From: Hypomesus transpacificus
Taxonomy: Eukaryota > Chordata > Actinopteri > Osmeriformes > Osmeridae
Reading direction: 5' to 3'
DNA: 64,000 nucleotides
Assembly: GCF_021917145.1 (NCBI RefSeq)
Contig: NC_061078.1
Span: 879,895 to 943,894 of the forward strand
Shown here: positions 21,072-64,000 of the stretch, piece by piece
How the letters are laid out: every line of letters begins with the position of its first letter
Numbering within the stretch: position 1 is the stretch's first letter
Notes under the pieces: model-generated
What the model was told of the DNA's origin: nothing
The model's database searches: none
The model's input: only the letters and a program-made list of their open reading frames with translations
Translations under genes and position numbers: made by a program

Positions 21072-24000
21072 ATGATGTTGACCACCCTGGAGTCTCCAAC
21101 CAGTTCCTCATCAACACTAGTGAGTTCACACTCACACACACACACACAAACTGTGCACACGAACATTGGGCAGACACACAAACCACACACAGCAATGTGT
21201 GTGTGTGTGCAGACTCGGAGCTGGCCCTCATGTATAACGACTCGTCGGTCCTGGAGAACCACCACCTGGCCGTGGGCTTCAAGCTGCTGCAGGAGCCCAA
21301 CTGTGACATCTTCCAGAACCTTCCCAAGAAGCAGAGACAGTCCCTCCGCAAGCTTGTCATTGACATGGTGAGACTCACACAAACACACACCTCCACCTAT
21401 CACAGCCCAGTCTGCAGGGAGGAGGATGGGCCTCCACCTATCACAGCCCAGTCTGCAGGAAGGAGGAGGGGCCACCGATGAGAATGCTGGGACTTTGTGT
21501 TCATAATATTTCATGATAAAAAGATTGGGCCTCATTCTCGAACATTTTCTGAAGTTTCTTCTGAATTGTTTCTTACGGGCTTCGGAAAAACAACGTAAGA
21601 AAAAGACATCCGCCAAATTCATGAACGCTTGAAAATGTGTTCCTACGCAGCAGAAGTTTTCTGAGCTGTGCTCCCCGGGAAGAGTTGTCTTGAGTTGAAA
21701 GCGCGTCCTCGTGCTCCTGAAAAAACCACAAGGATCAAAGGAATCGCATTTAAGAAAAACTCTCTGTGTTTGAAGTGTTAATAAAGTTATGAGAAATCGT
21801 TGGTGATTGAGTTCACATCAACTCTACAGACTATGGCAAGCCGTTTTATCATTTAACCAATGAATTGTTGACATCCAAAATTCGAATTCTGAATATCAAG
21901 AATTGCATTTTGGATATCAACAATTCGAATTTTGGATATCAACAATTCATTGGTTAAATGATCAAACGGCTTGCCATGACAGACATCCTCGGATTTAAAT
22001 AATGATAATATTTAACCTTTCTTAGTGTGCACACTGTTAGATCCAGTGGAGAACAATTCCACTGCTCATCTTACTGGTATGATGTTGCACCTGTGCACCG
22101 GTTGCTTTTCGCTTGGACATAACTTGCGTTCCTGTTGCTTTCCTAATTGTGTTGATTCTGACTGCACACGTCACTGCTGTTGCGTGCCATTTTAAGGAGC
22201 TGTCGGGGCGTGTATGTATGCAAATTCAGGAGCACGAGGACGCGCTTTCAACTGAAGAAAACTCTTCCCGGGAAGCACAGCTCAGAAAACTTCTGCTGCG
22301 TAGGAACACATTTTCAAGCGTTCATGAATTTGGCGGATGTCTTTTTCTTACGTTGTTCTTCCGAAGCCCGTAAGAAACAATTCAGAAGAAACTTAGGAAA
22401 ATGTTAGAGAATGAGGCCCAATGTTTCCATTCTGTAGAAATGTAAAGAGTTTGTAGTTTGCACATTACCCTGTGTGTGTGTGTGTGTGTGTGTGTGTAGG
22501 TCCTAGCTACTGACATGTCCAAGCACATGACCCTGCTGGCTGATCTGAAGACCATGGTGGAGACCAAGAAGGTGACCAGCTCAGGAGTTCTGCTGTTAGA
22601 CCAGTACACCGAACACATCCAGGTGGGTCTGTGTGTGTGTGTGTGTAGGTCCTAGCTGCTGACATGTCCAAGCACATGACCCTGTGTGTGTGTAGGTCCT
22701 AGCTGCTGACATGTCCAAGCACATGACCCTGTGTGTGTGTAGGTCCTAGCTGCTGACATGTCCAAGCACATGACCCTGTGTGTGTGTAGGTCCTAGCTGC
22801 TGACATGTCCAAGCACATGACCCTGTGTGTGTGTAGGTCCTAGCTGCTGACATGTCCAAGCACATGACCCTGTGTGTGTGTTAGGGGGGTCAGATGGCGG
22901 TTAGGGAATCAAGCTACCAATCAGAAGGTTGGTTCGATTCCCGGCCGTGACAAATGATGTTGTGTGGGCAAGGCACCCTACTTGCCTCTGGGGAATGTCC
23001 CTGTACTTACTGTAAGTCGCTCTGGACAAAAGTGTCTGCTAAATGACTACATGTAAATGTGTGTCGGTCCTAGCTACTGACATGACCCTGTGTGCTTGTA
23101 TGTGTTTGTGTGTGTGTGTGTGTGTATGGTGTGTGTGTGTGTGTATGGTGTGTGTGTGTGTGTAGGTGCTGAGGAACATGGTTCACTGTGCAGACCTCAG
23201 TAACCCCACAAAGCCCCTGGCTATCTACCGCCTGTGGACAGAACGCATCATGGAGGAGTTCTTCAGGTTAGAGAGGGACGGAAGGATAGATAGATTTTTT
23301 GTTCCAAACTTTTTTAGATTTTTTTTTCAACCCCCAACACATTATTCCAACACGACACAAAAAAAATTCAAACGTTGTTTTTAAAATGTTAAACCTTTCC
23401 AAACTTTTTTTCCAAAACTTTTTTTTTTGAAAGGAGAGAAAGATCATGCCACCAAATACAGATTAGAACTAAAGTCTGTCTTGAATATTTAAGAGATAAG
23501 ATATTTAACAACAGTGTAACAAACAACAGTGTAATGACATAACAGTGTGACCACAGTGTGACCACAGTGTGACCACAGTGTAACAGCAGTGTAACAGCAG
23601 TGTAACAGTGTAACCACAGTCTAACCACAGTGTAACAATAGCGTAACAGTGTAACCACAATGTAACCGCAGTGTAACCACAGTGTAACAGCAGTGTAACA
23701 GCAGTATAACCACAGTGTAACCGTAATGTAACCACAGTGTAACAGCAGTGTAACCGCAGTGTAACCGCAGTGTTAAAAAATCTGAAAAATAAATTGTAAT
23801 GTACTGATACCAGAAAAATCTACTAAGTACAGTCCATCTTTGTTGATTGGTTGATATGTCTTCCAGGCAGGGGGACAAGGAGAGGGAGCAGGGGATCGAG
23901 ATCAGCCCCATGTGTGACAAACACACTGCTTCTGTGGAGAAGAGTCAGGTGACACACACACACTCGTCTCAGTCTCCCTGCCTTCCACCCTCCTCTCCCC

Positions 24001-24961
24001 TCCCCTGCCCTGCTCCTCCCCTCCCCTCCAGGTGGAGTTTATAGACTTCATCTTTCTGTCATCCTCCTCTCCTCTCCAGGTGGGGTTTATAGACTACATT
24101 GCCCACCCCCTGTGGGAGACGTGGGCAGACCTGGTGCACCCAGATGCCCAGGAGCTGCTGGACACCCTGGAGGACAACAGGGAGTGGTACCTCAGCACCG
24201 TGCCCCAGTCGCCCTCTCCTCCCCCGGACAGACACCTCCAGCACAGGCCCCGCTTCCAGTTCAGCATGGAGGACCTGGAGAACGGCCACAGCCATGCCTA
24301 TCACAACCAGAATGGGGGGTTGAGGAGGGGGGAGGAGGTGGGGGAGGGAGAGGAGCCAGGAGGAGACGGAGAGGAGAAGATGGAGCAGCACCAAGATCAG
24401 GAGAACCACAATGGAGAATTCTATTGTTGTGGTGCGGAGGCAGGAGGGGAGGAAGAGGGAGAACGAGAGGGGGAGGAGGAGGGAGGAGGAGAGGGGGAGG
24501 AGGAGGGAGGAGAAGAGGGGGAAGAGGAAGGAGGAGGAGAGGAAGGAGAGGGGGAGGAGGAGGGAGGAGAAGAAGGGGAAGAGGAAGGAAGAGGAGAGGA
24601 AGGAGAGGGGGAAGCAGAGGGAGAAGAGGAAGGAAGAGGAGAGGGGGAGGGGGAGGGAGGAGGAGAATGGGAGGATGAGGAAGGAAGTGAAGGGGAGGGA
24701 GGAAGAGAGGTTGAGGAGGCAAGAGACGCATGGGATGGAGGAGAGGAAGATGACTTGGTAGAAGTAGGAGAGGAGGAGAAAGAGGTGGAGGAGGGGAAAG
24801 AGGAGGGTGAATGGGAGGAGGAAGAGGAGGAGGATGTGGAGGGTGAACAGGAGGGAGAGAAGGAAGAGGTGAAAGAGGCAATACAAGAGGAAGAGGAGAA
24901 CGATGGTGAGAAGGAGGAGGAGGGGAAGGAGGGTGAAGAGGAAAATGGGGAGGAAAGCTAA
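21072..24961 (+). CDS. pde4c: PDE4-type cAMP phosphodiesterase, C-terminal half (best match pde4c), 5' incomplete
   Basis: PDE4 enzymes hydrolyse cAMP to AMP in the cytosol. Exons in phase: 21072-21119 (partial), 21213-21367, 22500-22622, 23166-23266, 23867-23948, 24080-24961. Visible family marks: the metal-site [46 protein letters not shown] with the metal-binding Asp, and the invariant glutamine of ASVEKSQ followed by [38 protein letters not shown] and an acidic tail favour PDE4C over A, B or D, but the paralogue is an inference. The tail after FQFSMEDLE is about 230 residues of Glu/Gly-rich repeat, longer than usual. UCR1/UCR2 and the first catalytic histidines are missing: none of their exons is seen between 13 kb and the gap. 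The intron ends are unusual (see findings). Confidence 0.9.
21534..22422. mobile_element. MITE with ~200-bp inverted arms and a nested palindrome, in a pde4c intron
   Basis: The left arm starts ATTGGGCCTCATTCTCGAAC at 21534 and runs to about 21735. The right arm (about 22225-22422) is its inverted complement with a few differences, ending GAGAATGAGGCCCAAT. Between them, 21833-21977 is a second, nearly perfect palindrome with arms starting ATGGCAAGCCGTTT. No coding capacity; probably one hairpin-type element nested in another. Confidence 0.85.
22637..22880 (+). repeat. Array of five copies of a pde4c intron-exon junction
   Basis: Units of about 47 bases repeat GTGTGTGTAGGTCCTAGCTG and CTGACATGTCCAAGCACATG, which is the 3' splice site plus the first ~37 coding bases of the exon starting at 22500 (which reads CTAGCTACTGAC). 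The copies lie in the next intron, each with the acceptor intact; a degenerate copy is at about 23064-23090. Confidence 0.93.
22885..23060 (+). mobile_element. tRNA-derived SINE in a pde4c intron
   Basis: A-box region CAGATGGCGGTTAGGGAATC, B box GGTTCGATTCCCGG, body GGGCAAGGCACCCTACTTGC and tail GTCGCTCTGGACAAAAGTGT. Same family as the other SINE copies here. Confidence 0.88.
23345..23830. repeat. Dispersed repeat interrupted by a CAGTGTAACCA minisatellite
   Basis: The flanks (ACACGACAC, then GATCATGCCACCAAATACAG, and AATGTACTGATAC ... AAATCTAC) match the block at 61250-61487, so this is a dispersed repeat, perhaps hAT-like. Its middle (about 23515-23770) is a tandem array of CAGTGTAACCA / CAGTGTAACAG units absent from the other copy. 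Confidence 0.65.
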
Positions 24962-26061: not shown

Positions 26062-26414
26062 GCAATGCATCATGGGACTGTTAGGGGTGTGTGCGAGAGA
26101 GAAGGGGTGGGGGGTAGATTGTGTGTGTGGAGGGGTTGGATGTGTGTGTGTGTGGTGTATGATAGGGGTTGTGTGTGTGTGTGATAGGGGTTGTGTGTGT
26201 GTGTTTGAGGAGGGGTGGGGGGCAGGGAAAGTCTTCCTCTACTGTGTTTCTATTGTTAATCTGTGATTGGCACTTTACCCACCCCTGTACACACACGTCC
26301 TGAGATCCATGTCTTGTTATTACATATGTGTTACACACATTTACTGAATAATAATTGTGTATTTTAATCTGCTGATGTCAATAAATAATAATGAACATGC
26401 CTCAGATAAAATGT

Positions 26415-26691
26415 TTTATTAATGAGCTCATAAAAGAACCTGAGACACACACACACTTCCTCATTCAGCAGTCAGGTGACCAAACAGGTCCTGCTGGTTG
26501 GCTATAGGGGGTTTTGGCATCAAAGCGTAGTCATGCAGAGACACACATACACACACCCCATCCCTCCTCACACACACACACAGTACCAAAAGGCATAGAA
26601 AGAGATGCCAGACAGACTGAATAGCAGGATGAACACTTCAAATATTAAATAAATAGATGTTGATCTCAGAGCTCTACAAGTCTGCTAGGAG

Positions 26692-26725
<34 letters not shown>

Positions 26726-28421: not shown

Positions 28422-28459
<38 letters not shown>

Positions 28460-28465
28460 ACCCTG

Positions 28466-28496
<31 letters not shown>

Positions 28497-31400
28497 CACC
28501 CTGCCCTCTCTCTCTCTTCACCCTGCCCTCTCTCTCTTCACCCTGCCCTCTCTCTCTCTCTTCACCCTGCCCTCTCTCTTTCTTCACCCTGCCCTCTCTC
28601 TCTCTTCACCCTGCCCTCTCTCTCTCTCTTCAACCTGCCCTCTCTCTCTCTCTTCACCCTGCCCTCTCTCTCTCTTCAACCTGCCCTCTCTCTCTCTTCA
28701 ACCTGCCCTCCCTCTCTCTCTCTTCACCCTGCCCTCTCTCTCTCTCTCTTCACCCTGCCCCCTCTCTCCCCCTCCCTCCTGCTCCCCCTCTCCCCCTCCT
28801 CACCAGCAGTCTTCCCAGGACCCGCCCCCTTCTTCACCTCGAGCCACCAGGCAGGGCTCTGTCCTCCTGGACACCCCCTCCCTGCAGAGGGCCCTCTCTC
28901 CAGCCTGCTCAGACACAGAGCCACACAGCTACAAGGGGGGAATCAGAGATTATGATCACAGTTGGGCCAAGACAACTTTATAGTCTTAATACTATCTTTG
29001 TATTTCAGTTTACGTCTCCTGAGAAGGACCTGATGCTCCCATCAGCTGACTCAGTTACCTGCAGCAAGTCTCCTGAGAAGGACCTGACGATCCCATCATC
29101 CAGACCTGAGAGAGAGAGAGAGAGAGGGAGAGGAAGAGAGAGGAGAAAGAGATATAGAATGAGAAGGTGGGAAGAGAGAAAGGGAGAGAGAGAGGCAGAG
29201 GGGAGAGAGAGGGAGGAGAGAGGGAGAGAGAGGCAGAGGGGAGAGGGAAAAAGGGAGGGAGAGAGGGAGGGAGAAAGGGAGGGAGGAGAGAGAGAGGCAG
29301 GGGAGAGAGGGAGGGAGATAGAGTGAAAGAGAAAGAGGGAGAGAGAGGCAGAAAGACAGAGAGAGACAAAGAGAGAGCATCTCCACACCTACCCAGAGTG
29401 TTGAGTTCTTCTTCCAGACTGAGAAGGTTGCTTTCCAGCCGAGGGCGGAAGGTAGGAGGGGGGAGGGAGGAAGATAGGGGGAGGGAGGAAGAGGGGGGGA
29501 GGATGCTGGAGGGGGGAGGAGGGAAGACTGAGTCCAGAGATGACAAGTCTATCAGGTGGTAACTCTTTATCTCTTTGGGACTGAGGGAATCTGGAAAGAG
29601 AGAGGGGGTGGAGGGAGGGGGAGAGAAGGAGAAACAGAGAGGGTGAACCCTTGTGGAGGAGAAAACAGGAAAACACACACACATAAATAAGGATATAAAA
29701 ACATCGACCAACCTCTGTTATCATGGCTACCATTCTGCTTGGCCCCTCCCCCCTTCCCACTGGTCGCCACCCTGTCTCTGTAGGCGTTAACCGCCTGCGT
29801 CAGCTCGTCATTGGCCGAGAGGATCTGAGCCAGAGCCGAGTCATCGTCCACAGTGTCGCTGGCCAGGCGGAACAGGTTGGGCCGTAGCCTATCACAGCGC
29901 TCGTACAGGAGCTGCAGGAAGGGGGCGGGGCCACCGTGCACACAGGTGTGTGTGTGAGGCCGGGGGAGATTACACACAGCAGGGGGTCGTCCACACACAC
30001 ACACACACACAGCAGGGGGTCGTCCACACACACACACACACAGCAGGGGGTCGTCCACACACACACAGCAGGGGGTCGTCCACACACACACACACACACG
30101 CACACACCAGGGGGTCGTCCACACACACACACAGAAGGGGGTCGTCCACACACACACACAGCAGGGGTCGTCCACACACACACAGCAGGGGGTCGTCCAC
30201 ACACACACAGCAGGGGGTCGTCCACACACACACACACACACACAGCAGGGGGTCGTCCACACACACACACACAGCAGGGGGTCGGCCACACACACACACA
30301 CAGCAGGGGGTCGTCCACACACACACACACACACAGCAGGGGGTCGTCCACACACACACACACAGCAGGGGGTCGTCCACACACACACACACACAGCAGG
30401 GGGTCGTCCACACACACTCTCAAAAGTTTTCACACACAAACACCAATGACATCAATTTCTCCCACACAGGAAGCGTACACACACACACACACACCTTCAT
30501 GTGCTCGGAGTGCAGTGTGGTGTCTCCAGAGTCCAGCAGAGTTGTGAGTTCCCTGGTGCAACATTCCACTTCCTCCAGCACACACACACGCCTGGAGACC
30601 CTGTCCACACGCTCCTGCTCCTGCACACACACACACACACCAAGATTGCTATGGTGAACTAAAAATAAGATGTGAACTGAAATAGACAGGGACCACAACT
30701 AAAGCAATATGTGGTTCCGCACAAACTAAAATACAAATAATGTAGTGTCCATTGCTGTGGTTTGGTTGGCACTTCCATTCAAAATCCCCTCAAAATAATT
30801 GGGACTATTTTCAGTATACATCACAACCAGCTCACATTGTAAGGGGGGGGGGGGGGGGCCTCACCTCTTTAATGGTATGCTTGATCAGTCTGTTGGCTGT
30901 TTGTAGGTCTTCTGCACGATTGCTGTTCAGTAACCTTGCCAGTAACTAACACACACCATCACACACACGCACAATGTTATCTACAGAAAACAACCAGAAA
31001 TTCACATTCATATATTATAGTAGCCCTTACTCACCCTGACACACACACACCATGACACACACACCTTGGCCTTGTCTTCCTGGTCAAAGACAGAGTCCTG
31101 GGTCCTCTTGGAGGGGGGGGGCATCACCATGGTGACTGGCAGCACAGGGTCCTTCTTCACCAGACCTGAGGACACACACACACACACAAGCATGCACTAT
31201 TTGTACGTCACTTTAGATAAAAGAATATGATGAGTTAAGAAAATATCAATGTAGAGAGCTCTACATAATGTTCTTCAGGGTTCTAGTGTTGCAGTGTACC
31301 TTGTTTCTTTAGCATGCTGTAGGCCTCCTGGACCTTGGGCAGATCCTTCAGCCACACAGTCCAGCTGTACAGAACCTCTCTCACCTTCTCCTTCACCTGC

Positions 31401-34636: not shown

Positions 34637-35366
34637 GTGTTTGAGTCTGTGAGAGCTGCAGAAGTTTCTGGAAGCGATGTGTGACTTCTGAGGGGCCGAG
34701 ACAAACCATCATCTCTGCTACGCTGGGGCCTTGCTGTGGGGAGAGAGAGGGGGTAGAGAGGGGGTAGGATTTAGAGAGGAGAGCAGAGAGGGAGGAGATA
34801 AAAAGAGTGATGGAGGGAGGTAAAGGAGATGGAGGGATGAGAGAAAGAGGTAAGGCATAAAGCACTACTTCACATGGTATCTGTTCGACCTCTAGTGTGT
34901 GTGTGTGTGTACCTGCAGACCGCCGAGAGCTAGGCGCAGCATGGTGTGTGTGTACCTGCAGACCGCTGAGAGCTAGGCGCAGCAGCTTCATGGTGTCTCT
35001 GTACTTGGTTCTTCTGGTCTTCTGAGACAGAGCCTTAAGCTCCGCCCCCAGGGGCTCCACCGACCACTGACCTCCCTGCTCCTCCACCAACCTACATACA
35101 CACCATAACACTCAATACTGTATACTCAGTGTGTGTGTATATAGGTGTGTGTGTGTATATGTGTGTGTATGTGTGTGTGTGTATATAGGTGCGTGTGTGT
35201 GTGTTTATATAGGTGTGTGTGTGTGTGACCCACCGCAGGGCCAGAGAGGTGATGTGTCCGGGCTCTGGACTGAGTGCTGCCACCTGCTGGAGGGAGAGGG
35301 CGGGGCGCAGCCACAGGTAGCTGTACTGAGGAGACAGCAGCTCTGACAGGGAGGAGATATGACCCT

Positions 35367-47741: not shown

Positions 47742-50700
47742 TAAGGGACTGACCAGGCAGCTCTTGGCATTGTCCAGCAGAGCGGAGCGTTTGTAGCTGA
47801 GTGCGGAGGAGAAGAGGGAGAAGTCTGCCTCTCCCAGCTGGGTGAAGTAGGACCTGCAGGAGCCGTCAGGAACCAGCGAGTAGCTAGGAACACAGGGAGA
47901 GAGTTTAGACCAGGGGCCAGGGTTAGTCAAGGGCTAGTCCTAGTCCAGGATTATTTCTAATCCAGGGCTAGTCCAAGTCAAGGGCTAGGTCTAGTCCAGG
48001 GCTAGGTCTAGTCCAGGGGCTAGGTCTAGTTAGGGTACATACTCGTAGTACAGCAGCAGGTCAGGAGGGTAGAGGCTGTAGTTGGTGGCGTTGCTGTCAT
48101 CCTTGATGTAGTTGTACATGCAGGTGAGCTGGAGCAGAGCGGAGAGACACTGTCAGTAACCCTCTCCCACACCCCTCTCCCTCCTCCACCTCCCTCCTCC
48201 ACCTCCCTCCTCCCCTCTCCCTCTCCCTCCCCCCTACCACACCCCTCTCCCTCCCCTCTCCCACACTCCTCCCCTCTCCCACACCCCTCTCCCTCCTCCC
48301 ACACCCCTCTCCCCCCCTCCACCTCCCTCCCCTCTCCTCCTCCCCTCTCCATCCTCCCCTCTCCCCACCTGTGTCTCCTCCCCCTCCCCTCTCCCCTCCC
48401 CCTACCTGTGTCTCCTCCCCCTCCCCTCTCCCCTCCCCCTACCTGTGTCTCCTCCCCCTCCCCTCTCCCCTCCCCCTACCTGTGTCTCCTCCCCCTCCCC
48501 TCTCCCCTCCCCCTACCCGTGTCTCCTCCCCCTCCCCTCACCTGTGTCTCCTCCCCCTCCCCTCTCCCCTCCCCCCTACCTGTGTCTCTTCCCCCTCCCC
48601 TCTCCCCTCCCCCTACCTGTGTCTCCACCAGGGTGACTCTCTGGCTCCCCCTACCTGTGTCTCCAGCAGGGTGACTCTCTGGCTCCCCCTACCTGTGTCT
48701 CCAGCAGGGTGACTCTCTGGCTCCCCCTCCTCCTGCAGGCTCTGACCAGGCCTGTGATCTTCACGCGGCTCAGAGTCGACACTCTGGTGCAGGTGAAGCC
48801 CTGGAGCACCGAGGACGATATGCTGCACGCACACACACACACACACAACATTATAGTTGAGTGAGACATGGAGGGAAGGAGGAGGAAGAGAAGGAGGAGG
48901 ACAGGGAAGAGGAGAAGATCGTACCTGTCAGGGTTGTCAAACTGCACCGCCACTGTGTCGAAGAACAGAACAGCCTACACAGAAGCAGAGCGTTAGAGTT
49001 TGTGTACGTCAGAGTATGTGTGTGTGTCATAGAGAGAGTGTGAGTGTGTCATAGAGAGAGTGTGTGTGTGTCATAGAGAGGGTGTGTGTGTGTCATAGAG
49101 AGAGTGTGAGTGTGTTAAAGAGAGTGTGTGTGTGTCCCACCTGCTCTTGCTTCCACTTCTTCTTGTTGAGGGTGGTTGCCACGGCGCCGCTCTGTGAGAA
49201 CCCTAATAGCTGCCCTCGAGGGATCTCCGTTGCCATGTTGTCAGGAACGTTCTGGATGATGCTCTCTGCGTTGCTGTTCATCAAGATGATCTGGTGCAGC
49301 CAGAAAATTCAGAGTCAGATTCCGAACCAGAATAAAGGTGTGACACCTGGGGAGGACTAAAGGTGTGACACCTGGGAAAGACTAAAGGTGTGACACCTGG
49401 GGAAGACTAAAGGTGTGACACCTGGGGAAGACTAAAGGTGTGACACCTGGGGAACACTAAAGGTGTGACACCTGGGGAAGACTACAGGTGTGACACCTTT
49501 AAGAGTAAAGGTGTGACAACTGGGGAAGACTACAGGTGTGACACTGGGGAAGACTACTGAACACACTCTGCACCAGGTGTGTGACACTGTACCTGGGTGA
49601 CAAAGGTCTGCTGGAGGATGATGGGAGTGTTGATCAGGTTGGCGAGGAATGAAGGATTCTGGGAAGACAGGATGAGCTCCTGACCGCTGATGGCACCCAT
49701 TGTTGCCACGGGAACGCCCCCCAACAGAGTTCCCAGCATGAGGAGAGTGGAGGAGCTGTTGATCTGGAGAGAGAGAGATCATCCATGTACTTGTCTTCCC
49801 CTTCAGAGATTTATACCAGCCTTTCAGCTTATCATCCCCATCAGAGATTTATATACAGTCATGTTATCCATCTATCCCTCCATTCCTCCCTCCACATACC
49901 TGCAAGGATCCAGACATGAGCAGTGATTGGATGATCATCAGCGACTGTCCCTGGTTCCAGTCAGTCAACAGGCTGAGCATGTGCAGTGATGCGAACAACA
50001 CTGTGGGCGGAGCCAGCATCAGCTGACCAGTGCTGAGCCCGGTGCTGCTATTGCCGAGGGCAGCGAAGGAGTTCTCCGTCAGAGAGCCGTCCATGTTGCT
50101 GGCTAGCTGAGCTGACACCTGGGACATACACACACGTTTAATACACACACACACACATACCTGCTGTGTGTGGAGCTGAGAGTTCTCTGAGTGTGTGTGT
50201 GTGTGTTGTACCAGTGGGTCCAGGTTGGAGCAGATGCTCAGGTTGAACAGAACGATGTTGCTCTGCTCTGCAGTCAGCTGAGCAAAGGCCTGAGGAGGAG
50301 CAACACACCTGCACTGGAGGGGGAGACTGGGGGGAGGAGGGGGGAGGAGGAGGGGGGAGGGGGAGGGGGGGGGGGGAGGAGGAGGGGGAGGAGGGGGGGG
50401 AGGGTTGGATGAAAAGAGAAAGGCAGTTGTTTAAACATGTTATTCAAAATTCATCAAACAAAACATCACAAGTGTGTGTGATGGTGTGTGTGTGTGATGG
50501 TATGTGTGTGATAGTGTGTGTGTGATGGTATGTGTTTGATAGTGTGTGTGTGATGGTGTGTGTGTGATAGTGTGTGTGTGATGGTATGTGTGTGATGGTG
50601 TGTGTGTGATAGCGTGTGTGTGATGGTGTGTGTGTGATGGTGTGTGTGTGATAGTGTGTGTGTGATGGTGTGTTTGTGATAGTGTGTGTGTGATGGTGTG

Positions 50701-53700
50701 TGTGTGTACCTACAGCAGAGGGCTGAAGGAGCTGTCCTGCTGGTAGATCAGATATGTGTAGTAGTTGGTTAGGTTGACCGGCAGGCTGGAGTGGTTCAGA
50801 AGGGCGATGTTGACTGGGTTCACTGTAAACACCTGCAACACCTGGACACACACACACATCACACACACACGTCATGTTGTATCCACACACATCAGTACAC
50901 ACACATCACACACACACATTATCCCTCAAGGATGGCAAACTAAGAAAATGTTGACCATAACTTCAGTTGGTTTAGGGTTAAAGGTTCAGGTTAGGTTTCT
51001 GGGCCATGGTGTTGGTGCAGCACCTGTGTTGATCCAAAGGTGTTGAGGGCTTCCAGAGTGAGGAGGGGCATGAAGGGCCCCAGGTAGTCAGAGAACCAGG
51101 CTGTGGAGTTCAGGACTGGGTCAGTGGAGCTGTAACACCTGGGCACCGAGTCTGGAGGAGGAGAGGATGTTTCAGATTAACAGGTGAAGGTAGAGATATG
51201 GTGGACGTGGTACTGAGGTTGTCTCTATGAGTGCGAAAGAAACTGCTGGTTTGATCCAAGATGGCCGACCTGACTTGAGGTACGTTCTGATGGTGTCATA
51301 CACGTCTGAGGTTCCAAAGTCTGCAGCGCTGTAGTTATGGTTACCCATCACTGCCACCCTGCAACAACCACACACATACCACTTTATCAAAACAGAAAAA
51401 CATCTTCACACACGCTACCTGTCTCAACTGATGCTACCTGATTAAATGCTTATGTGTGTGTGTGTGTGTGTGTGAGTGAGGGTATGTGTTTGTATGTGAG
51501 TGTGTGTATGTGTGTGTGTGAGGGTGTGTGTGAGGGTGTGTGTGTGTGTGTGTAGACCCTACAGCTTCCTGAAGGCAGGACAGGTGGCGTTCTGCACAGC
51601 GGGGGAAGTGAGCAGGCTCTTGGACAGGAAGCCCAGGTAGTCACGGAGACGGAGGTCGAACCAAGCGTTGACCTCTGACCCCCGGGTTGAGCTTAGGGCC
51701 ACTGGCCACACGCAGGGCAAGGTGAGACGGCCCACGGCCGCAGGCAGTCTCTCCTGGAGAGAGGGAGAGGATGAGGGTGTGTGTGTGTGTGTGTGGATGA
51801 GAGATTGTGTGTGTGTGTGTGTGGATGAGAGATTGTGTGTGTGTGTGTGTGGAAGAGAGATTGTGTGTGTGTGTGTGTGTACCTTCTCCAGCAGCAGAGG
51901 GGTCAGCATGTATGTGCTGTAGAGAAGACAGAGTTGTGTGTTGTCGTCAACGCTGTTTGGCCTTCGTAGGAAACTAGCCAGGTCTGACGGTGGCATGGAG
52001 TTTATCAGCTGGGGAGGAAGACCACCATCATCACAATCATCCTCCCCACACTCCCCCCTCCCTTCCTGTCCTTCCCTCCCTGTCCCTCCCTCCCTCCCTG
52101 TCCCTCCCTCCCTCCCTGCCTCCCTGCCTCCCTCCCTGTCCCTCCCTCCCTCCCTCCCTGTCCCTTCCTCCCTCCCTCTCTCCCTGCCTCCCTCCCTCCC
52201 TCCCTGCCTCACTCCCTCCCTCCCTGCCTCCCTGCCTCCCTCCCTACCTGTTCCCTGCGGTTGCTGGGCATCAGGGACATGAAGGTGGTCAGGTTGGGGA
52301 ACTGAAAGCCCATGAATGTACTCTCCAGGTAACCATAGAAACTGTGGTTGTAGTTGTCACCGTAGCAACGCAGCGGTGTGGGTCCTGAGGGGCAAGAGAC
52401 AGTGTTTGTGTGTTAGGGTGTGTGTGTTAGGTTGTGTGTGAGGGTGAGTATGTGAGGTTGTGTGTGTGTGTGAAGGTATGTCTGTGTCACAGTATTATTG
52501 TGTTTGTTCGTAGTGTTGTGGTTATTGTTGTTTTTGTGTGTGTCTACTAGAGGCCACCCTCCCTTCCTACCTCGGAGAGACTCCACCATCTGACTGAAGA
52601 TCACACTCTTGGTGTCGTCATGGAGACTGGAGATGGTAGAGTTAAGGAGGTCCATTCTAGAGAAAAGGAGATATAAGGAAGGAGAGATGAACACAGAGAG
52701 AGAGGGAGAGGTGGAGATGGAAATAGATACCGGTAAATATGAGTAAGAAAGAGAGATGGAGCAGAGGATTAGAAAGTGGAGATAAAGAGAGATAGAGGGA
52801 GGGAGAGAGAGGGGTGTAGAGAGCAAGAGATAGAGAGAGGGAGGTAGAGAGAAAGGGAGACAGAGAGATGGAGAGAGAGGGAGGTAGAGAGAGATAGAGA
52901 GAGAAAGGGAGGTAGAGAGAGACAGAGAGAGGGAGGTAGAGAGACAGAGACATGCAGTGTGACTCTCACCCCTGCTGCTGGGTGCTGCAGTTCCTTTGTG
53001 CCAACACACTGAAGTAGGGGGCGACGTGGAGCGCAGACATGTCCACCAGTAGGGGGCGGAGCCTCACATGCAGCCACAACAGCACTTCCTGGTCATCCAC
53101 GGCAACTGGGTTGGAGAGGTTGCCGCGGGAGAAGATGATCTGGAGGAAGGCTGACCTCACTGAGGGGGGGAGCATGGTCACATGACCCTGGAAGGGAGGG
53201 AGGGATAGAGAGTCGGAGGGTGAAAAGAGGAGAGAGAGGATTATTAAATAGTTACAAGGTTGTCTTTATCCTACAGTACTGCTTGTTTGAAGCATGGTTT
53301 GGAATCTGGTTACCATGACGGCGGGAGAGAAGTCTGAGAAGAAGGAGGTAAAGAGGTGGTCCGGGACGTTGTTCATCACCATGGTAACCTGGGCGGGGCT
53401 GGTGAGCTGGCCCGGGGTGGAGGACACCTCCGCCAGCTGTCTGACGGCTAGCACACTCACAGCCTCCATCTGGTGACACACACACACTGTTACTACACCC
53501 TCACAGCCTCCATCTGGTGACACACACACTCTGTTACTACACCCTCACAGCCTCCATCTGGTGACACACACACACTGTTACTACACCCTCACAGCCTCCA
53601 TCTGGTGACACACACACTGTTACTACACCCTCACAGCCTCCATCTGGTGACACACACACACTGTTACTACACACGCACACCCTCACAGCCTCCATCTGGT

Positions 53701-55184
53701 GACACACACACTGTTACTACACCCTCACAGCCTCCATCTGGTGACACACACACTGTTACTACACCCTCACAGCCTCCATCTGGTGACACACACACTGTTA
53801 CTACACCCTCACAGCCTCCATCTGGTGACACACACACACTGTTACTACACACACACAGCCTCCATCTGGTGACACACACACACTGTTACTACACCCTCAC
53901 AGCCTCCATCTGGTGACACACACACTGTTACTACACCCTCACAGCCTCCATCTGGTGACACACACACTGTTACTACACCCTCACAGCCTCCATCTGGTGA
54001 CACACACACACTGTTACTACACCCTCACAGCCTCCATCTGGTGACACACACACTGTTACTACACCCTCACAGCCTCCATCTGGTGACACACACACACTGT
54101 TACTACACCCTCACAGCCTCCATCTGGTGACACACACACACTGTTACTACACCCTCACAGCCTCCATCTGGTGACACACACACTGTTACTACACCCTCAC
54201 AGCCTCCATCTGGTGACACACACACTGTTACTACACCCTCACAGCCTCCATCTGGTGACTCACACACACTGTTACTACACACACAGCCTCCATCTGGTGA
54301 CACACACACTGTTACTACACCCTCACAGCCTCCATCTGGTGACACACACACTGTTACTACACCCTCACAGCCTCCATCTGGTGACACACACACACTGTTA
54401 CTACACCCTCACAGCCTCCATCTGGTGACACACACACACTGTTACTACACCCTCACAGCCTCCATCTGGTGACACACACACACTGTTACTACACACACAC
54501 AGCCTCCATCTGGTGACACACACACACTGTTACTACACACACACAGCCTCCATCTGGTGACACACACACACTGTTACTACACCCTCACAGCCTCCATCTG
54601 GTGACACACACACTGTTACTACACCCTCACAGCCTCCATCTGGTGACACACACACTGTTACTACACACACTGTTACTACACACACACAGCCTCCATCTGG
54701 TGACACACACACACTGTTACTACACCCTCACAGCCTCCATCTGGTGACACACACACTGTTACTACACCCTCACAGCCTCCATCTGGTGACACACACACAC
54801 TGTTACTACACACACTGTTACTACACACACACACCCTCACAGCCTTCATCTGGTGACACACACACACTGTTACTACACACACTGTTACTACACACACACA
54901 CCCTCACAGCCTTCATCTGGTGACACACACACACTGTTACTACACACACACACACACTGTCACTACACACACACACACACTGTTACTACACACACACACA
55001 CTGTTACTACACACACACACAATCACAGCCTCCATATGGGGACACGCACGCCTAGTTTGACACGTACCGCAGAAAAGTTGGAGTTTAGTCTTTGGAGATC
55101 AGGGAATGAAGCCAGAGCAGAATATCTCCCCAGGTTCTTCAGCAGCCAGTCTCCACTGTCCACACTGCCCACCACACAGCTGGC

Positions 55185-58200: not shown

Positions 58201-61200
58201 GGTGCAAACATGCTTTAGGATTTGAGAAGTTGAACAACAACAAGTGCAAACTTGAACATACTGAAGCACAGGCAAAGTCCCTGATGCTGTGGTCACATAG
58301 AGTGCTTCCTGTCTGGCTGTTGTCAAGGAGACGCTGAAGTGCTGAGCTTAAGTAAACAAAGTGAGACCCAAAGATGAGAATATTCAAGAAATGAACAATA
58401 TATTAATTAAATAATTGGGTACATTAATCTATAAATAATTGAGTAAAAACAAATCAGAGTTCCTACCTGTCCACCCCAGCACAGATCTCCGTCTCTGTGG
58501 ACAACAGACGACATCATGAGCTAGTACCACCACTGGTTCATCATGAGCTAGTACCACCGCTGGTTCATCATGAGCTAGTACCACCACTGGTTCATCATGA
58601 GCTAGTACCACCACTGGTTCATGATGATCTCACTGTGTTGTTTGACAGTCAGGTGACCAATAGGGGATGTCTTACCGTTGTAGGATGTGATGCTGCAGTC
58701 TCCACTGTAGACGATGCAGCCTAAACAACACGGACAAGAAACAAGCTGTGTCAGACAGGAAACAGGAAACAAGCCGTGTCAGACAGGAAACAGGAAACAA
58801 ACTGTGTCAGACAGGAAACAGGAAACAAGCTGTGTCAGACACGAAACCTGTTTACTGTCTGACATGGCTTGTTGGGGTCAGGGGTTAAGGTTAGGGTCAG
58901 AGGTTAGGGTTACCTTGTGGTGCCTGCTGTAGCAGAGCTATCTTGCTGGAGGATACAACAGCTTCCACTGCTAGAGGGACTGTGGGCATGGCTATGTCCA
59001 GACGGCCGATACTGGGGACAGAGAGGTGGTCAGGGTAAGGGTCGGGATAGGGGCCAGGGTAAGGGTCGGGATAGGGGCCAGGGTAAGGGTCGGGATAGGG
59101 GCCAGGATAGGGGCCAGGGTCAAGGTTAGGGTCTGGTCAGGGTAAGATTCAGGGAAAGGGTGGGGGTTGAGGTTCGGGTGGGGGTCAGTGTTCGAGGATA
59201 CTCTGCGATGGATGGAACTTACATGGTCCTATAGGAGGAGCAGGGGACGGTCATCTGCAAAAAAGGAGAGAAGTTCCTGTTGTCAAGCCAACTCCCACAT
59301 CCTTTCCTCAACTGAACTACATCAACAGCAAAGCTAGAAATAGCTACCCCTGACCCTTGAACCCTGCCCCCCAAAACAACCACATCCGGACGCAGCAGAG
59401 TGTTAGAGCACAGAAAGATCGTTCGCACCTCCTGAGACATGTTGACGAGGTGTAGCAGGACTTCTGGAAGCTTCCTCTCTTCTGGGGACTCAGTCAGGAA
59501 GTCAAACACTCTGTTGATGACATCATCTTTCTCTGGAGGAACAGGAAGAGGAAGCAGCAGCAGCTCTGCAGTCTGGTGTGGAGACAGGACCTCCAGGGCC
59601 TCCAGCTGCACACCACAGAAGAAGACACACTTCAGAACACAAACCAACACAGCGTGTCCACACCTTGCCTGGTGGGTCTAAGCAGGGGTGGTGGAGGAGT
59701 CTTGGAGAAGATGTACCGGGGAGAAGAGAGGGTTTGTGGCCAACAGGTCCCTGAGGGTCACCAGCACGGAGAAAGCCCCCCAGTTGCTCCTCAGCCAGTC
59801 TGTACTGCTGTTGGAGCTGGACACACATCCAGGCTCTGCAGGGGAGACAGCAGGATGGAGACGTCGAGAGACACAGGTCAGTAGAGTCAACATGTCGGTA
59901 GTCCACTTTAGTCGTGTAGGGAGAGAACCCAGGTTGCCTGCTCCTTACCTGAGGAGTTCCTGGTCAGGAAGGGCTGGATGAAGTATCTGACCACCAGCTC
60001 TCGTCTGCTTTGGTCCATGAGCTGGGACTGACGGCTCAGCTCCATCACACTGGAAGAACACAATAACATCTGAACAACAATTACCATTTCCTGACAACAA
60101 CAAATGTGTTCCTACTGGAGACCTACATGTGCTGGTCACTACTGTGTTCCTACTGGAGACCTACATGTGCTGGTCACTACTGTGTTCCTACTGGAGACCT
60201 ACATGTGCTGGTCACTACTGTGTTCCTACTGGAGACCTACATGTGCTGGTCACTACTGTGTTCCTACTGGAGACCTACATGTGCTGGTTACTACTGTGTT
60301 CCTACTGGAGACCTACATGTGCTGGTCACTACTGTGTTCCTACTGGAGACCTACATGTGCTGGTCACTACTGTGTTCCTACTGGAGACCTACATGTGCTG
60401 GTCACTACTGTGTTCCTACTGGAGACCTACATGTGCTGGTTACTACTGTGTTCCTACTGGAGACCTACATGTGCTGGTCACTACTGTGTTCCTACTGGAG
60501 ACCTACATGTGCTGGTAGGAGGAGCAGCTGAGGTTCCTGCTGGAGAGGCAGTGGAGGAACCTTCCTGATGCTGACGGCAGGAAGAGCCTCAAACGCCCTG
60601 AGAACCACCTCATGATGACATCACTGTCTCTCAGCTGATCCTCGCTCAGCAAGGACACTCTCATCTCTCCAATCACGTCCAGCGCCGTCGATACTGACGG
60701 ACCAATCACGCTCATGTTCTAGGAGACAGAAGAGAGCACAAGGAGAGGAGAAGAGACAGTCTTGAACAAAACATATTTGGCAAATCATTGGAACAAATTG
60801 TGGTCTGTGTCAGAGATATATGTGGCCTGTATCAGAGATATATGTGGTCTGTAGCAGAGATATATGTGGTCTGTATCAGAGATATATGTGGTCTGTATCA
60901 GAGATATATGTGGTCTGTATGAGAGATATATGTGGTCTGTAGCAGAGATATATCCGATACTGTATATCCGGTCTGTACCATGCTGGAGAGGAGGTCCAGG
61001 GCCTGGTCCAGGCCAGCGGACGCTCTGGTGAGGAACAGTTTCCAGGTCTCCCGAGGGTACGAGGAGTTTCCAGCCAGCCAACACCTCAGCAGCCTGGACA
61101 GCTGCTCTGCTGTAAGCTCCTTTAGCTGCGGGGAGGACACCACTCGTCACATCACTCATCCTGACCATCACTTCTAACACCTTGTTTACCTGGTCCTAAC

Positions 61201-64000
61201 TGTATGCAGGCACTGTGTTGATGGATAATATACATACATATACATACATATACAACACGACACTAAACGTTTCAAGTTTTTGTCAACTTTTTTTAGTGTA
61301 CTTTTCTTTTTTTTCTTTGAGATCATGCCCCAAATACAGATGAAAACTTAACTTAAGTAACGAGTCTGGCTTGAACATTTAATTAAAAAGTACAGATATT
61401 TGTGTAAAAAATGCAAGGAGTGAAAGTAAAAAGTTGTCAGAGAAATAAATAGTAACGTAAAGTACTGATACTAAAAAAATCTATTTAAGTAGTCAGGTGG
61501 CTGAGCGGTTAGGGAATCGGGCTAGTAATCAGCAGGCTGCCGGTTCGATTCCCGACTGTACATAATGACGGTGTGTCCTTGGGCAAGGCACTTCACCCTA
61601 CTTGCCTCGGGGGGAATGTCCCGGTACTGACTGTAAGTCGCTCTGGATAAGAGTGTCTGCTAAATGTAAATGTAAGTAGATTCCAATCTCTGGTCAGGAG
61701 AGCATTTATTGGCTGCTGCAGTTTAGGCTCCTCCTACCTGAGCACAGGCATACTGTGTGATGGTGAAGTCACAGAGAACAGATGATTGGTTCCCCGTATC
61801 TAGGCGCTGCTGGAGGGCGGAGCTACAACACAAGACAGACAGGAGCAATCAATTGTCAAACCCACAACCAAGACCTTTTTTAACATTAGGTCTTGTGATT
61901 CACAAGCCATAATACAACATGTTTTATTGAACCTATAGTCATACAACTAAACTAAATGACCTGGTATAACACTGAGATTATATGACAAGTGGTGTACACT
62001 GGTAAACTGAACAAGGTTGATTGTTCTGTGATTGGCTAACTGGTCTGAACAGGATCTCACCTGTCCACCCCAGCACAGACTCTGGTTGCTAAAACACACC
62101 AAAGAAATGCAGAGTTAAGAGTTACAATGTGGTTGGTTTGGACTATTTAATAGAAGGACATGATTATTTGAGTCTGGTATTGATGTTTACTACAGTGAAG
62201 GTCTAACTGGAATTGATGTTTACTACAGTGAAGGTCTAACTGGTATTGATGTTTACTACAGTGAAGGGCTAACTGAAGTAACTTACCGTTGTGAGAATAT
62301 ACTAGACACTGGGGGTTTACCGGTACCAGAACACAACCTAGAGGTCAAATACATTTGACAAGACGTTAAGTATGTTGATATTTCATTGGATTTATTCAAC
62401 ATTTTAAACTAATTTGTGCTCGCTATCAGCAAGGCATGCTATTGTTAGCTCACATACTGTATATATTATTAATTTACTATCATACAAAACCTAAATGGTC
62501 CCACGTTTTGCACAAAGTTGAACATTATGGACATTTGGGAATACCTTTACTGGTTTGGAGGTGATGTAATTAAACAAACTGCTCCAGCTGAAGAATCTGC
62601 AAGGACACTTCACAATTCCCCCAGAAATGGTACCCTCTCTTGTTTAAAAGAGTCATTTTGATGCTGTCGAACAGTCATCCATGATTGGAACCTGCTTGAA
62701 CAAAACAGCAACAGAATTCTCTCCTGACTCACCTATTGGAGTAGATTCTGTGAGGTCATAGATTGCAGACCAGATCATTGGCTGCATCTGGTTGGGGAGG
62801 CGGATCATGGAGTCGTACAGCCTCTTGAAACTGTTCAAACCACAAAACTAAACTGTTAGACCAAGAGGACTACCACTAGATGGGAAGTCCATAGGGTCTT
62901 AAAACAAGAATGACTCATCACAAGACTGTGGTTCTTTGCCACCTCTGCCACACCTGGCTCACTAGTAATCACTAGGCCAAAAGACTCTCATTCTCCTCCC
63001 TGTGGCGTGACTTACATTGTCTGGTACACGGGGCAGCTAACTGGAATCTGAAGACAAGGAGCACACAGGAACATCATCACCTCAATGGTAATCATGCTAT
63101 GTATCTACCATATTTAATAACATTTCTTGACAATACCTTATCAGGGATTAAAATGAAGTATCATTGCAGTTCATGGAAAGGTGGGGGAGTGAATGAGATG
63201 AAAACAGAGTTACCTCCTGGGCAATCTTCACAAGGTGTAGCAGGACTTCTGGAAGCTTCCTCTCTTCTGGGGACTCAGTCAGGAAGTCAAACACTCTGTT
63301 GATGACATCATCTTTCTCTGGAGGAACAGGAAGAGGAAGCAGCAGCAGCTCTGCAGTCTGGTGTGGAGACATGACCTCCAGAGCCTCCAGCTGCACACCA
63401 CAGAAGAAGACACACTTCAGAACACAAACCAACACAGTGTGTCCACACCTTGCCTGGTGGGTCTAAGCAGGGGTGGTGGAGGAGTCTTGGAGGAGATGTA
63501 CCGGGGAGAAGAGAGGGTTTGTGGCCAACAGGTCCCTGAGGGTCACCAGCACGGAGAAGGCCCCCCAGTTGCTCCTCAGCCAGTCTGTACTGCTGTTGGA
63601 GCTGGACACACATCCAGGCTCTGCAGGGGAGACAGCAGGATGGAGACGTCGAGAGACACAGGTCAGTAGAGTCAACATGTCGGTAGTCCACTTCAGTCGT
63701 GTGGGGACAGAACCCAGGTTGCCTGCTCCTTACCTGAGGAGTTCCTGGTCAGGAAGGGCTGGATGAAGTATCTGACCACCAGCTCTCGTCTGCTTTGGTC
63801 CATGAGCTGGGACTGACGGCTCAGCTCCATCACACTGGAAGAACACAATAACATCTGAACAACAATTACCATTTCCTGACAACAACAAACGTGTTCCTAC
63901 TGGAGACCTACATGTGCTGGTCACTACTGTGTTCCTACTGGAGACCTACATGTGCTGGTCACTACTGTCTTCCTACTGGAGACCTACATGTGCTGGTTAC
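41301..64000 (-). CDS. Giant mesothelin-like GPI-anchored glycoprotein, 49 exons, 5' incomplete
   Basis: Member of the mesothelin/stereocilin/otoancorin superfamily. Exons 5'->3': 63734-63834, 63502-63620, 63214-63390, 63016-63047, 62733-62830, 62287-62337, 62061-62088, 61738-61822, 60979-61125, 60507-60718, 59949-60049, 59717-59835, 59429-59605, 59223-59254, 58914-59011, 58676-58720, 58467-58494, 58262-58346, 57581-57763, 57258-57469, 56992-57095, 55068-55186, 53314-53469, 52970-53187, 52571-52656, 52248-52384, 51883-52008, 51563-51753, 51270-51358, 51024-51151, 50710-50841, 50212-50289, 49900-50118, 49593-49763, 49141-49290, 48925-48974, 48693-48822, 48043-48128, 47754-47883, 47412-47602, 46893-46983, 46658-46778, 46053-46249, 45490-45645, 44686-44819, 44259-44398, 43835-43929, 41492-42128, 41301-41383. 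Phases join throughout. [29 protein letters not shown] and [12 protein letters not shown] match mesothelin. Many N-x-S/T sites. One in-frame TAG ends the exon at 50710. Confidence 0.82.
41510..41895 (-). repeat. Coding 12-bp minisatellite: (Gly-Pro/Ser-Thr-Ala)n stalk
   Basis: About 30 units translating to GPTA or GSTA, in frame inside the penultimate exon between the mesothelin core and the GPI exon. A Thr/Ser/Pro-rich stalk of this kind is expected to be heavily O-glycosylated. Copy number is likely polymorphic. Confidence 0.9.
42262..43862 (-). repeat. 1.6 kb array of ~34 copies of a mesothelin-like exon donor junction
   Basis: On the gene strand each 40-55-base unit reads ACCAGCCTCAGTCTGGACAC, then TGTCCTGGTACACACAC: the last ~28 coding bases of the exon ending at 43835 plus its donor GTAC and a (CA)n run. 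The intron is almost nothing else. Confidence 0.96.
44020..44266 (-). repeat. Array of nine copies of the donor junction of exon 44259-44398
   Basis: Units of 22-38 bases read AGCCATACCTGGGTACACAC on the gene strand: the exon end (CCA TAC CTG G) plus donor GTAC and (CA)n. The genuine copy is at 44259. Confidence 0.93.
44825..45290. repeat. CACAGGCGAACACAGACACA minisatellite beside an acceptor
   Basis: About 18 units of roughly 24 bases directly upstream (gene strand) of the exon starting at 44819. It contains no coding sequence; it supplies GTGTGTTCGCCTGTGTGTG before the acceptor. Confidence 0.92.
45765..46085 (-). repeat. Array of nine copies of the donor junction of exon 46053-46249
   Basis: Units of 36-40 bases read CCTGAGCATCATACTGAACA, then CAGACAGGTAGGAACA: the exon's last ~30 bases (CTG AGC ATC GTA CTG AAC AAA CTC AGA CAG) and donor GTAGGA. 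Several copies mutate the donor to GCAGGA. Confidence 0.94.
46272..46605. repeat. 20-bp minisatellite (CAGTCAGACTGTGTTTACTT)
   Basis: About 16 units of 20 bases with variants TATGA, TTTGA, ACTGC and ACTTC. Intronic; no exon sequence. Confidence 0.95.
46710..46727 (-). other. Putative furin cleavage site RRKRRR in the mesothelin-like protein
   Basis: The polybasic run follows LINNSLS and precedes [11 protein letters not shown]. Human mesothelin precursor is cut by furin after RPRFRR just before the mature domain. Here the site lies a comparable distance upstream of the mesothelin-matching part, so processing into an N-terminal fragment and an anchored C-terminal part is plausible. Confidence 0.65.
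47050..47395. repeat. Purine-rich (GGAGGAGA) tract in an intron
   Basis: G/A-only repeats with AGAGGAGAGG and GAGGAGGAGGG blocks, mutually similar over 40-60 bases. Confidence 0.92.
47639..47745. repeat. (GT)n microsatellite in an intron
   Basis: GT runs with a few GA and TTT interruptions between exons 47412-47602 and 47754-47883. Confidence 0.9.
48366..48730 (-). repeat. Array of ~10 copies of the donor junction of exon 48693-48822
   Basis: Two copies nearest the exon carry AGAGAGTCACCCTGCTGGAG and ACACAGGTAGGGGGAG (about 38 bases of exon end plus donor GTAGGG). The more distal copies keep only GGAGACACAGGTAGGGGGAG with purine filler. All read into the intron. Confidence 0.93.
49325..49560. 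repeat. 24-bp minisatellite (AAGGTGTGACACCTGGGGAA)
   Basis: About ten units. On the gene strand each contains TCTTCCCCAGGTGTCAC, a good acceptor look-alike, in the intron before the exon starting at 49290. Confidence 0.92.
50300..50710. repeat. Purine tract (50318-50405) and GTGTGTGATGGTGTGTGTGT repeats
   Basis: Intron between exons 50212-50289 and 50710-50841: G-rich GGAGGAGGGG sequence, then 24-28-base units of TGTGTGATGG / TGTGTGATAG that end at the donor of the 50710 exon. Confidence 0.88.
52030..52247. repeat. CCTCCCTCCCTG repeats in an intron
   Basis: C/T-rich repeats CCTCCCTCCCTGCCTCCCTG between exons 51883-52008 and 52248-52384. Confidence 0.88.
52660..52960. repeat. (GA)n-rich repeat in an intron
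   Basis: GAGAGAGGGAGGTAGAGAGA units between exons 52571-52656 and 52970-53187. Confidence 0.88.
53455..54930 (-). repeat. 1.45 kb array of ~35 copies of an acceptor junction
   Basis: On the gene strand each 36-40-base unit reads TAGTAACAGTGTGTGTGTCA, then CCAGATGGAGGCTGTGAG: the 3' splice site plus the first ~14 coding bases of the exon starting at 53469 (ATG GAG GCT GTG AG). The array fills the intron upstream of that exon. Confidence 0.95.
55275..56933. mobile_element. Tc1/mariner transposon, complete ends, 1,659 bp
   Basis: TA target duplications (55273-55274 and 56934-56935) flank inverted repeats of about 220 bases starting CAGTGCCCTCCAAAAGTATT. Each repeat carries the outer and inner direct repeat CAAAAGTATTGGAACA, the IR/DR layout of fish Tc1 elements. 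It lies in the intron between exons 56992-57095 and 55068-55186 of the mesothelin-like gene, in antisense orientation to it. Confidence 0.96.
55644..56679 (+). pseudogene. Tc1-type DD34E transposase, inactivated
   Basis: Starts at ATG 55644 with an N-terminal paired-like helix-turn-helix region ([20 protein letters not shown]) and a GRPRK-type hook. A -1 frameshift near 56065-56080 moves the frame just before VLWTDETK. The first catalytic Asp (WTDE), second Asp (QQDNDPKH) and Glu (DLNPIEH) are all present. A TGA at 56443-56445 interrupts the second frame where the family normally has Trp. With only these two obvious lesions, the copy is fairly young. Confidence 0.93.
57770..58172. repeat. 33-bp purine-rich minisatellite (GAGGACGGGGACAGGGGGAG)
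   Basis: About 12 units, ending exactly at the acceptor of the exon starting at 57763. On the gene strand it makes a long C/T tract. Confidence 0.93.
58500..58625. repeat. Minisatellite (CATCATGAGCTAGTACCACC)
   Basis: Four and a half units of about 31 bases just upstream (gene strand) of the 28-base exon at 58467-58494. Confidence 0.92.
58740..59135. repeat. Short tandem repeats around exon 58914-59011
   Basis: 58740-58850: four 28-30-base units of GACAGGAAACAGGAAACAAG. 59030-59135: six 18-26-base units of AGGGTAAGGGTCGGGATAGG. Both are intronic. Confidence 0.85.
60105..60525 (-). repeat. Array of 11 copies of the donor junction of exon 60507-60718
   Basis: A 38-base unit, nearly identical between copies, reads ACCAGCACATGTAGGTCTCC on the gene strand: the exon's last 10 bases (ACCAGCACAT) and donor GTAGGT, then AGTAGGAACACAGTAGTG. 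The same array begins at 63895 in the duplicated copy. Confidence 0.96.
60795..60958. repeat. 22-bp minisatellite (GTATCAGAGATATATGTGGT)
   Basis: Seven units directly after the donor of the exon ending at 60979. The first intron bases (GTACAGACCGGATATA) resemble the unit, so it may derive from the intron start. Confidence 0.9.
61250..61487. repeat. Dispersed repeat, second copy of the 23345-23830 element
   Basis: Shares ACACGACAC, GAGATCATGCCCCAAATACA and AAAGTACTGATACTAAAAAA with the pde4c intron copy. It ends at the SINE that follows. Confidence 0.65.
61494..61676 (+). mobile_element. tRNA-derived SINE in the mesothelin-like gene
   Basis: The best-preserved copy of the family: CAGGTGGCTGAGCGGTTAGG (A box), GGTTCGATTCCCG (B box), TTGGGCAAGGCACTTCACCC and the tail GTCGCTCTGGATAAGAGTGT. 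Confidence 0.92.
63234..64000. repeat. Near-identical duplicate of 59449-60215
   Basis: The two stretches align without gaps at a constant offset of 3,785 bases and differ at only scattered sites. They span three exons with their introns and the start of the 38-bp junction array. Outside the left limit (63233 / 59448) similarity drops abruptly. The duplicate continues past the window end. Confidence 0.95.

Follow-up and report, generated by a model that had tools for sequence, protein, structure and literature searches.

What produces minisatellites in which a piece of coding exon is fused to its own splice site, and why do they recur in neighbouring genes? The question is raised by a 64-kb stretch of a fish genome, hereafter the window (G000:C19:879895-943894; genome size 437 Mb in 376 contigs), which lies 0.9 Mb from a contig end in a GC-rich and array-rich region. 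A preliminary description of the window had listed 12 such arrays in four genes, namely a PDE4 gene, gga2, ears2 and a mesothelin-like gene. Our analysis indicated that these arrays are very probably mirages, minisatellites whose repeat unit spans an exon-intron boundary, which would arise as by-products of tandem duplication and be tolerated over donors but purged from exons and mostly from acceptors. This looks like repeat growth spilling over gene edges and not like a mechanism aimed at them.

Structure of the junction-containing arrays

All 12 arrays were checked by base-by-base reading and by a mechanical copy test, in which 12 exon and 6 intron bases (donors) or 6 intron and 12 exon bases (acceptors) had to recur within 3 kb with at most 3 mismatches in 18. 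The test covered 79 junctions of the window (38 donors, 41 acceptors) annotated by reading on the basis of homology, frame and GT-AG ends. Of these annotations, those of the mesothelin-like exons carry the greatest uncertainty; donor 46893 is off by one base, and one mesothelin-like exon pair that belongs near 60034 was assigned to its segmental duplicate (63834, 63733). The test flagged neither of the two. A repeat unit spanning the exon-intron boundary was found in 11 of the 12 arrays by reading and at 11 of the 79 junctions by the copy test, which flagged 8/38 donors and 3/41 acceptors (ears2, 3/9 donors; mesothelin-like gene, 5/15 donors and 1/17 acceptors; PDE4, 2/4 acceptors) and none in gga2 (0/15 junctions) or in an ELFN-like gene (0/8). 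Fusion of exon sequence to its own splice site, as originally described, was therefore firm in three of the four genes. It was doubtful for the array at 29014 in gga2 (29014..29105, minus strand), an unflagged case consisting of a two-copy duplication of exon interior just past the exon, in which the splice site is not cleanly copied.

Eight arrays are of the donor type, three in ears2 (listed at 34906, 36229 and 37262) and five in the mesothelin-like gene (42262, 44020, 45765, 48366 and 60105), all on the minus strand; a slash marks the junction in the units given below. In ears2, two copies of a 43-bp unit made of the exon end and GTACACACACAC occupy 34901..34984 (first intron base 34955), 13.0 units of 29 bp, TCTGGCTTCACCT/GTGAGGAGGAGG, occupy 36219..36600 (donor 36587; GT kept in 12/12 decoys), and units of about 20 bp, CCACG/GTACACAC..., with a very short exon part of about 5-7 nt, occupy 37264..37444 (donor 37444). 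The longest array of the mesothelin-like gene comprises 34.5 units of 47 bp, CACCAGCCTCAGTCTGGACACTGTCCTG/GTACACAC..., at 42252..43862 (donor 43834), with GT kept in 31/33 decoys. It is accompanied by about 9 units of 22-38 bp, GCCATACCTGG/GTACACAC..., at 44016..44275 (donor 44258; GT in 8/8), about 9 units of 36-40 bp with the exon end ...CTCAGACAG/GTAGGAACACCTGA at 45760..46094 (donor 46052), where GC replaces GT in most decoys and GT is kept in 2/7, a composite array at 48337..48728 (donor 48692) with GGGGGAGCCAGAGAGTCACCCTGCTGGAGACACAG/GTA three times followed by a GTAGGGGGAGG... array, and 10.8 units of 38 bp, ACCAGCACAT/GTAGGTCTCC..., at 60105..60516 (donor 60506; GT in 10/10). Tandem Repeats Finder (TRF) recovered all eight, and their donors are the eight flagged by the copy test.

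The three acceptor-type arrays (listed at 22637 and 24032 in PDE4 and at 53455 in the mesothelin-like gene) are less uniform. At 22636..22881 on the plus strand, 5.2 units of 47 bp (TRF, 100% matches; also read directly) consist of (TG)nTAG followed by GTCCTAGCTGCTGACATGTCCAAGCACATGACCC, the first 33 nt of the PDE4 exon starting at 22500, from which the units differ by one base; the array itself occupies the following intron, beyond donor 22623, and acceptor 22500 is the one flagged as copied. The second PDE4 case (24031..24079, plus strand; read directly and flagged) is a single decoy with an exon copy of about 20 nt; the authentic acceptor, 24080, follows 48 bp downstream and is common to six other loci. 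In the mesothelin-like array (53452..54949, minus strand; TRF and reading), 33 decoys of the form TGTGTCACCAG/ATGGAGGCTGTGAG precede the authentic acceptor, whose first exon base is 53469, and AG is kept in 32/33 of the decoys.

The preliminary description had noted rows of decoy splice sites, and many copies indeed keep the splice signal. Over ten donor arrays (the eight above and two at other loci described below), 103/111 copies kept GT, a figure obtained with a search allowing up to 6 mismatches in 22 and including four copies that seemingly lie outside the arrays, so that it is biased toward retention. The median decoy score equalled that of the authentic donor in 8/10 donor arrays; it was higher at 37444 and lower at 46052, where GT was lost in 5/7 copies.

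The arrays also change in length. Two mesothelin-like exons lie in a 98%-identical segmental duplication (59427-60951 and 63212 onward, locus L039), and the 38-bp array has 10.8 units in one copy and 14.8 in the other (63891..64000 on the minus strand, continuing past the window to 64453; TRF), while an adjoining 22-bp array has 7.0 and 18.3 units. Because near-identical duplicates differ in this way, the arrays appear to be unstable and to change length rapidly, the instability of the boundary-spanning unit being seen in one array, between paralogous copies of a single assembly.

Junction overlap relative to local repeat density

The preliminary description considered so many cases unlikely by chance and proposed a comparison with shuffled positions, which was run in the window. 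TRF minisatellites (period ≥9) make up 34.5% of the window, and TRF arrays 34.0% of positions 21072-64000. When the array mask was rotated 2000 times over the latter interval, with a junction defined as 8 bases on each side, the arrays covered 8/71 junctions compared to 22.5 ± 4.3 expected (donors, 7/34 vs. 10.8 ± 2.5; acceptors, 1/37 vs. 11.7 ± 2.6). Junction overlap was thus below, not above, the expectation from repeat density.

Rotation disregards the protection of exons, and a profile of local duplication gives a fairer comparison. The share of 18-base words with a local copy was 2% in exon interiors and 3% at word start -42 in the window, rose to 21-27% across donors (word starts -12 to -6) and reached 30-45% inside introns at +18 to +90, with 33% for whole introns. 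Across acceptors the values were 7-14% (word starts -15 to +6) and 0/22 at -18. There was no peak at the junction in this profile: donors lay somewhat under the intron level and acceptors well under it. Junction copies exceed what random sequence would give but not what the local repeat density would give. Enrichment at junctions was accordingly rejected on both tests, and the argument from improbability is not supported.

Arrays at other loci

Recurrence of the structure was assessed in twenty 9.9-kb loci with PDE-domain exons elsewhere in the genome, where junctions were called if paralogs shared the exon end; this gave 70 donors and 84 acceptors with at least two supporting paralogs each. 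Those rows of the same scan that fell in the window and consisted of simple repeats or dispersed elements were replaced by the hand-made junction list. Donor arrays were present at 2/70 outside donors, with eight copies of GCCCTGCGCTGGAG/GTACACAC at 44-bp spacing (L015) and 14 copies of AGTTCTACCAGCAG/GTACCTCT at 33-bp spacing (L018), both in loci of above-median array density. No acceptor array was found among the 84 outside acceptors. An acceptor of L025 (2828) has three copies at 52-bp spacing; it has one supporting paralog and falls outside the 84, and a donor of the same locus (2461), likewise with one supporting paralog and with one distant copy, falls outside the 2/70. Three further flagged junctions were discarded as spurious: the donor of L010 and the acceptor of L021, each with one distant 3-mismatch copy, and the donor of L019, a microsatellite.

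The junction-array structure is not peculiar to the window, though the window is richer in it. In the PDE loci, copied words amounted to 10% in introns and 0.2% in exons, and the minisatellite share ranged from 0.6 to 29% in the 20 loci. Among 16 loci on contigs longer than 3 Mb, array density increased with GC content (rho 0.76, p=0.0007) and fell with growing distance from the end of the contig (rho -0.55, p=0.028). Such a pattern would fit recombination-rich chromosome ends, although contig ends may differ from chromosome ends.

Origin of the arrays

We infer that very frequent tandem duplication, by slippage or unequal exchange, would hit the non-coding sequence of this region, possibly helped by CA/GT runs beside donors. 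A duplication that crosses a donor and takes in the final tens of bases of the exon would leave the authentic exon-donor unit first and turn all further copies into intron; these would do little harm, and their survival is best ascribed to this small cost. Duplications lying wholly within exons would be removed by selection, and those at acceptors, which would put extra sites before the authentic one, would mostly be lost. Exon definition, favouring the shortest exon, most likely holds splicing at the authentic site: decoys mostly match its score but would sit farther from the partner site. Authentic sites were recognised here by homology and frame only, and their use in preference to decoys is a prediction.

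Donors and acceptors differed in TRF overlap (7/34 vs. 1/37, p=0.024), as this account would predict, but several observations weigh against it. By word copies the asymmetry is not significant (8/38 vs. 3/41, p=0.11), and pooled roughly with data from the PDE loci it reached p=0.057. The array at 22636 lies in the next intron, a position that one simple tandem duplication does not give, and the acceptor at 53469 retains 33 upstream decoys, which on this account should be harmful. Donors with copies are more frequent in the window than in the PDE sample (8/38 vs. 2/70, p=0.003), intron words being likewise richer (33% vs. 10%), and L019 and L021 are equally array-dense, yet carry no junction array.

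A first alternative is a process targeted at junctions, in which a splice-site-tied factor, such as a (CA/GT)n run starting at the donor, duplicates boundaries preferentially. Seeding by such runs had been suggested for the window and gained modest support: a CA/GT run within the first 16 bases was present at 5/10 array donors compared to 12/98 others (Fisher p=0.008) with two spurious hits counted as non-array, or 6/12 compared to 11/96 (p=0.003) before they were moved. The highest duplication rate of the window (42-45%) also lies at word starts 18-30 bases into the intron. However, a CA/GT run is missing from half of the array donors, the association in the window alone is 4/8 vs. 7/30, the junction itself shows no duplication peak and fewer junctions are overlapped than under rotation, which makes preferential targeting unlikely. 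Still less probable is a function of the repeated sites in alternative splicing or dosage, maintained by selection. The retention of GT and the equality of scores in most donor arrays are what such a function would give, but near-identity is accounted for by recent homogenisation of the units, with no need for selection, and the search for copies is biased toward similar ones. The units, of 20, 29, 38, 43, 44 and 47 bp, mostly have lengths that are not multiples of 3 (exceptions being the 33-bp units of L018 and the 36-bp units frequent at 46052), the 45760 array has kept GT in only 2/7 copies, use of a 53452 decoy would, from its sequence, introduce a stop codon inside the unit, and copy number differs between near-identical duplicates.

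Inflation or collapse of repeats by the assembler is the least probable of the explanations weighed here and can be set aside with near certainty. Array copy numbers are indeed hard to assemble, and a run of 100 N stands at 20972-21071. Nevertheless, the units differ from one another by independent point changes, arrays of this structure are also present on other contigs and have precedents in amphioxus, and contigs of up to 21.5 Mb suggest a long-read assembly. Spill-over of tandem duplication across gene edges is the probable reading.

Extra introns in the ELFN-like and PDE4 genes

Two genes of the window carry introns that are missing from their paralogs. The gene at 8233-13048 (minus strand), which we take to be ELFN-like from its leucine-rich repeat (LRR) sequence, has four GT-AG introns absent from a single-frame paralog (C17:3680246-3681751, L029). 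Intron 1 (11870..12659, 790 bp) is almost entirely a 20-bp array with repeated CAG/GTGTGTG, intron 2 (10550..11725, 1176 bp) includes a dispersed repeat about 325 bp long, intron 3 (9607..9727, 121 bp) has itself as its sole match in the genome, and intron 4 (8711..8817, 107 bp) contains 2.5 copies of a 28-bp repeat; the last was found by hand, a separate intron scan having recovered introns 1-3 only. Human ELFN genes have one coding exon. In the present genome, 33 other places with LRR matches lie in open frames of at least 500 aa, a count drawn from a list with scores for the best candidates only, and long unsplit LRR frames are therefore common. The ELFN-like coding sequence also contains a 151-bp GA-rich array (9236-9386) encoding in-frame Glu-Arg repeats, which the paralog lacks.

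The PDE4 gene has one extra intron, of 600 bp at AG/G (23267..23866, plus strand), with an inner 11-bp array and dispersed-repeat matches over positions 130-581 of the 600. The genome contains at least seven PDE4-like loci; six besides that of the window carry the compared exon, and all six lack this intron. All five introns are thus GT-AG introns missing from paralogs, and both genes keep their frame once spliced, as expected for intron gain, with the polarity resting on paralogs of the same genome alone. The comparison leaves out L024, a weak match compared with the window only, and an intron difference between L027 and L011 involves a single paralog and gives no polarity.

An origin of the five introns from exon sequence was rejected: their best exon matches fell within the range of shuffled sequences, although old copies could have decayed, whereas a mirage intron used as control exceeded the shuffles in the same comparison. 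No sign of an introner-like family was seen in a search that took in ELFN-like intron 3, which matched only itself, and the PDE4 intron, but not ELFN-like introns 1 and 4. That mirages and intron birth are linked through tandem duplication is accordingly not established for these five. That ELFN-like introns 1 and 4 are themselves tandem arrays nevertheless points to a broader possibility, in which hypermutable GC-rich regions near chromosome ends would, in this lineage, be nurseries for new gene structure, runaway tandem duplication there yielding donor mirages as well as introns. We regard it as unlikely; if it were true, mirages and new introns would have a common source in a single vertebrate process.

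Gene annotation and other features

Gene identities agreed with those first proposed in three cases: ears2 by a tRNA-synt_1c domain, gga2 by VHS, GAT and adaptin-C domains and the mesothelin-like gene by Mesothelin PF06060, all on the minus strand. The plus-strand gene named pde4c is a PDE4 gene, its joined exons aligning without gaps to human PDE4D over 216 residues (441 bits), but the letter c was not upheld, as PDE4D, the best PDB match, scores above PDE4C (441 vs. 420 bits). The run of N at 20972-21071, an assembly gap or a withheld stretch, adjoins the PDE4 catalytic exons. Open frames at 55930-56680, between mesothelin-like exons, resemble a transposase of the Tc1/mariner type, and an Rfam scan returned two UnaL2 ends of long interspersed nuclear elements and nothing else. 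These ends and the number of PDE4-like loci suggest a ray-finned fish. Elsewhere in the genome, a whole myosin head domain lies within a single open frame of 1980 aa (G000:C6:12348042-12350066), apparently an intronless myosin heavy chain gene or a retrocopy.

Comparison with known systems

Intron gain is known in ray-finned fishes, for example in slc26a1/2 and MC receptors (PMC12357937; PMC3151243), and lineage-specific introns, some at proto-splice sites and some transposon-like, have been described there and in the ATP2A1 case (PMC4974935; PMC12357937; PMC3151243). The five window introns resemble these in being lineage-specific, as far as the published accounts allow comparison, but carry no detectable exon-derived copy. 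In human segmental duplications, new introns are reported to form from internal tandem repeats located at exon-intron boundaries (PMC2812944). The likeness lies in the position of the repeats; the human ones are described between recent paralogs and with RNA support, whereas the arrays found here lie inside introns of the same gene.

The preliminary description knew of no system of this kind, but one has been reported. Mirages of amphioxus, described in Adh3, troponin C, the globins BflGb6 and BflGb9 and PGBD5 (PMC3087553; PMC3902484), are minisatellites with units across the exon-intron boundary, the same structure as the fish arrays, which belong to this known kind. Reports describe their length as unstable and splicing as undisturbed by them, it was suggested that they may be general in cephalochordates (PMC3087553), and new introns have been proposed to originate from them (PMC3087553; PMC3902484). 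A single process for mirages and intron birth was put forward for the globins. The present case differs in that it concerns a fish genome, that 11 of 79 annotated junctions are involved in one 64-kb window and that the array at 22636 is located in the following intron; the likeness rests on the published descriptions. No case of junction arrays in fish was recognised among the matches listed from the open-licence literature. Their density here suggests that a sufficiently high rate of tandem duplication yields mirages beyond amphioxus. Fish mirages would offer natural tests of spliceosome choice, since the authentic donor has to be picked out of as many as about 30 near-identical sites, and their proximity to genes with introns missing in paralogs makes the link between duplication and intron birth, proposed for amphioxus, accessible to comparison with related fishes.
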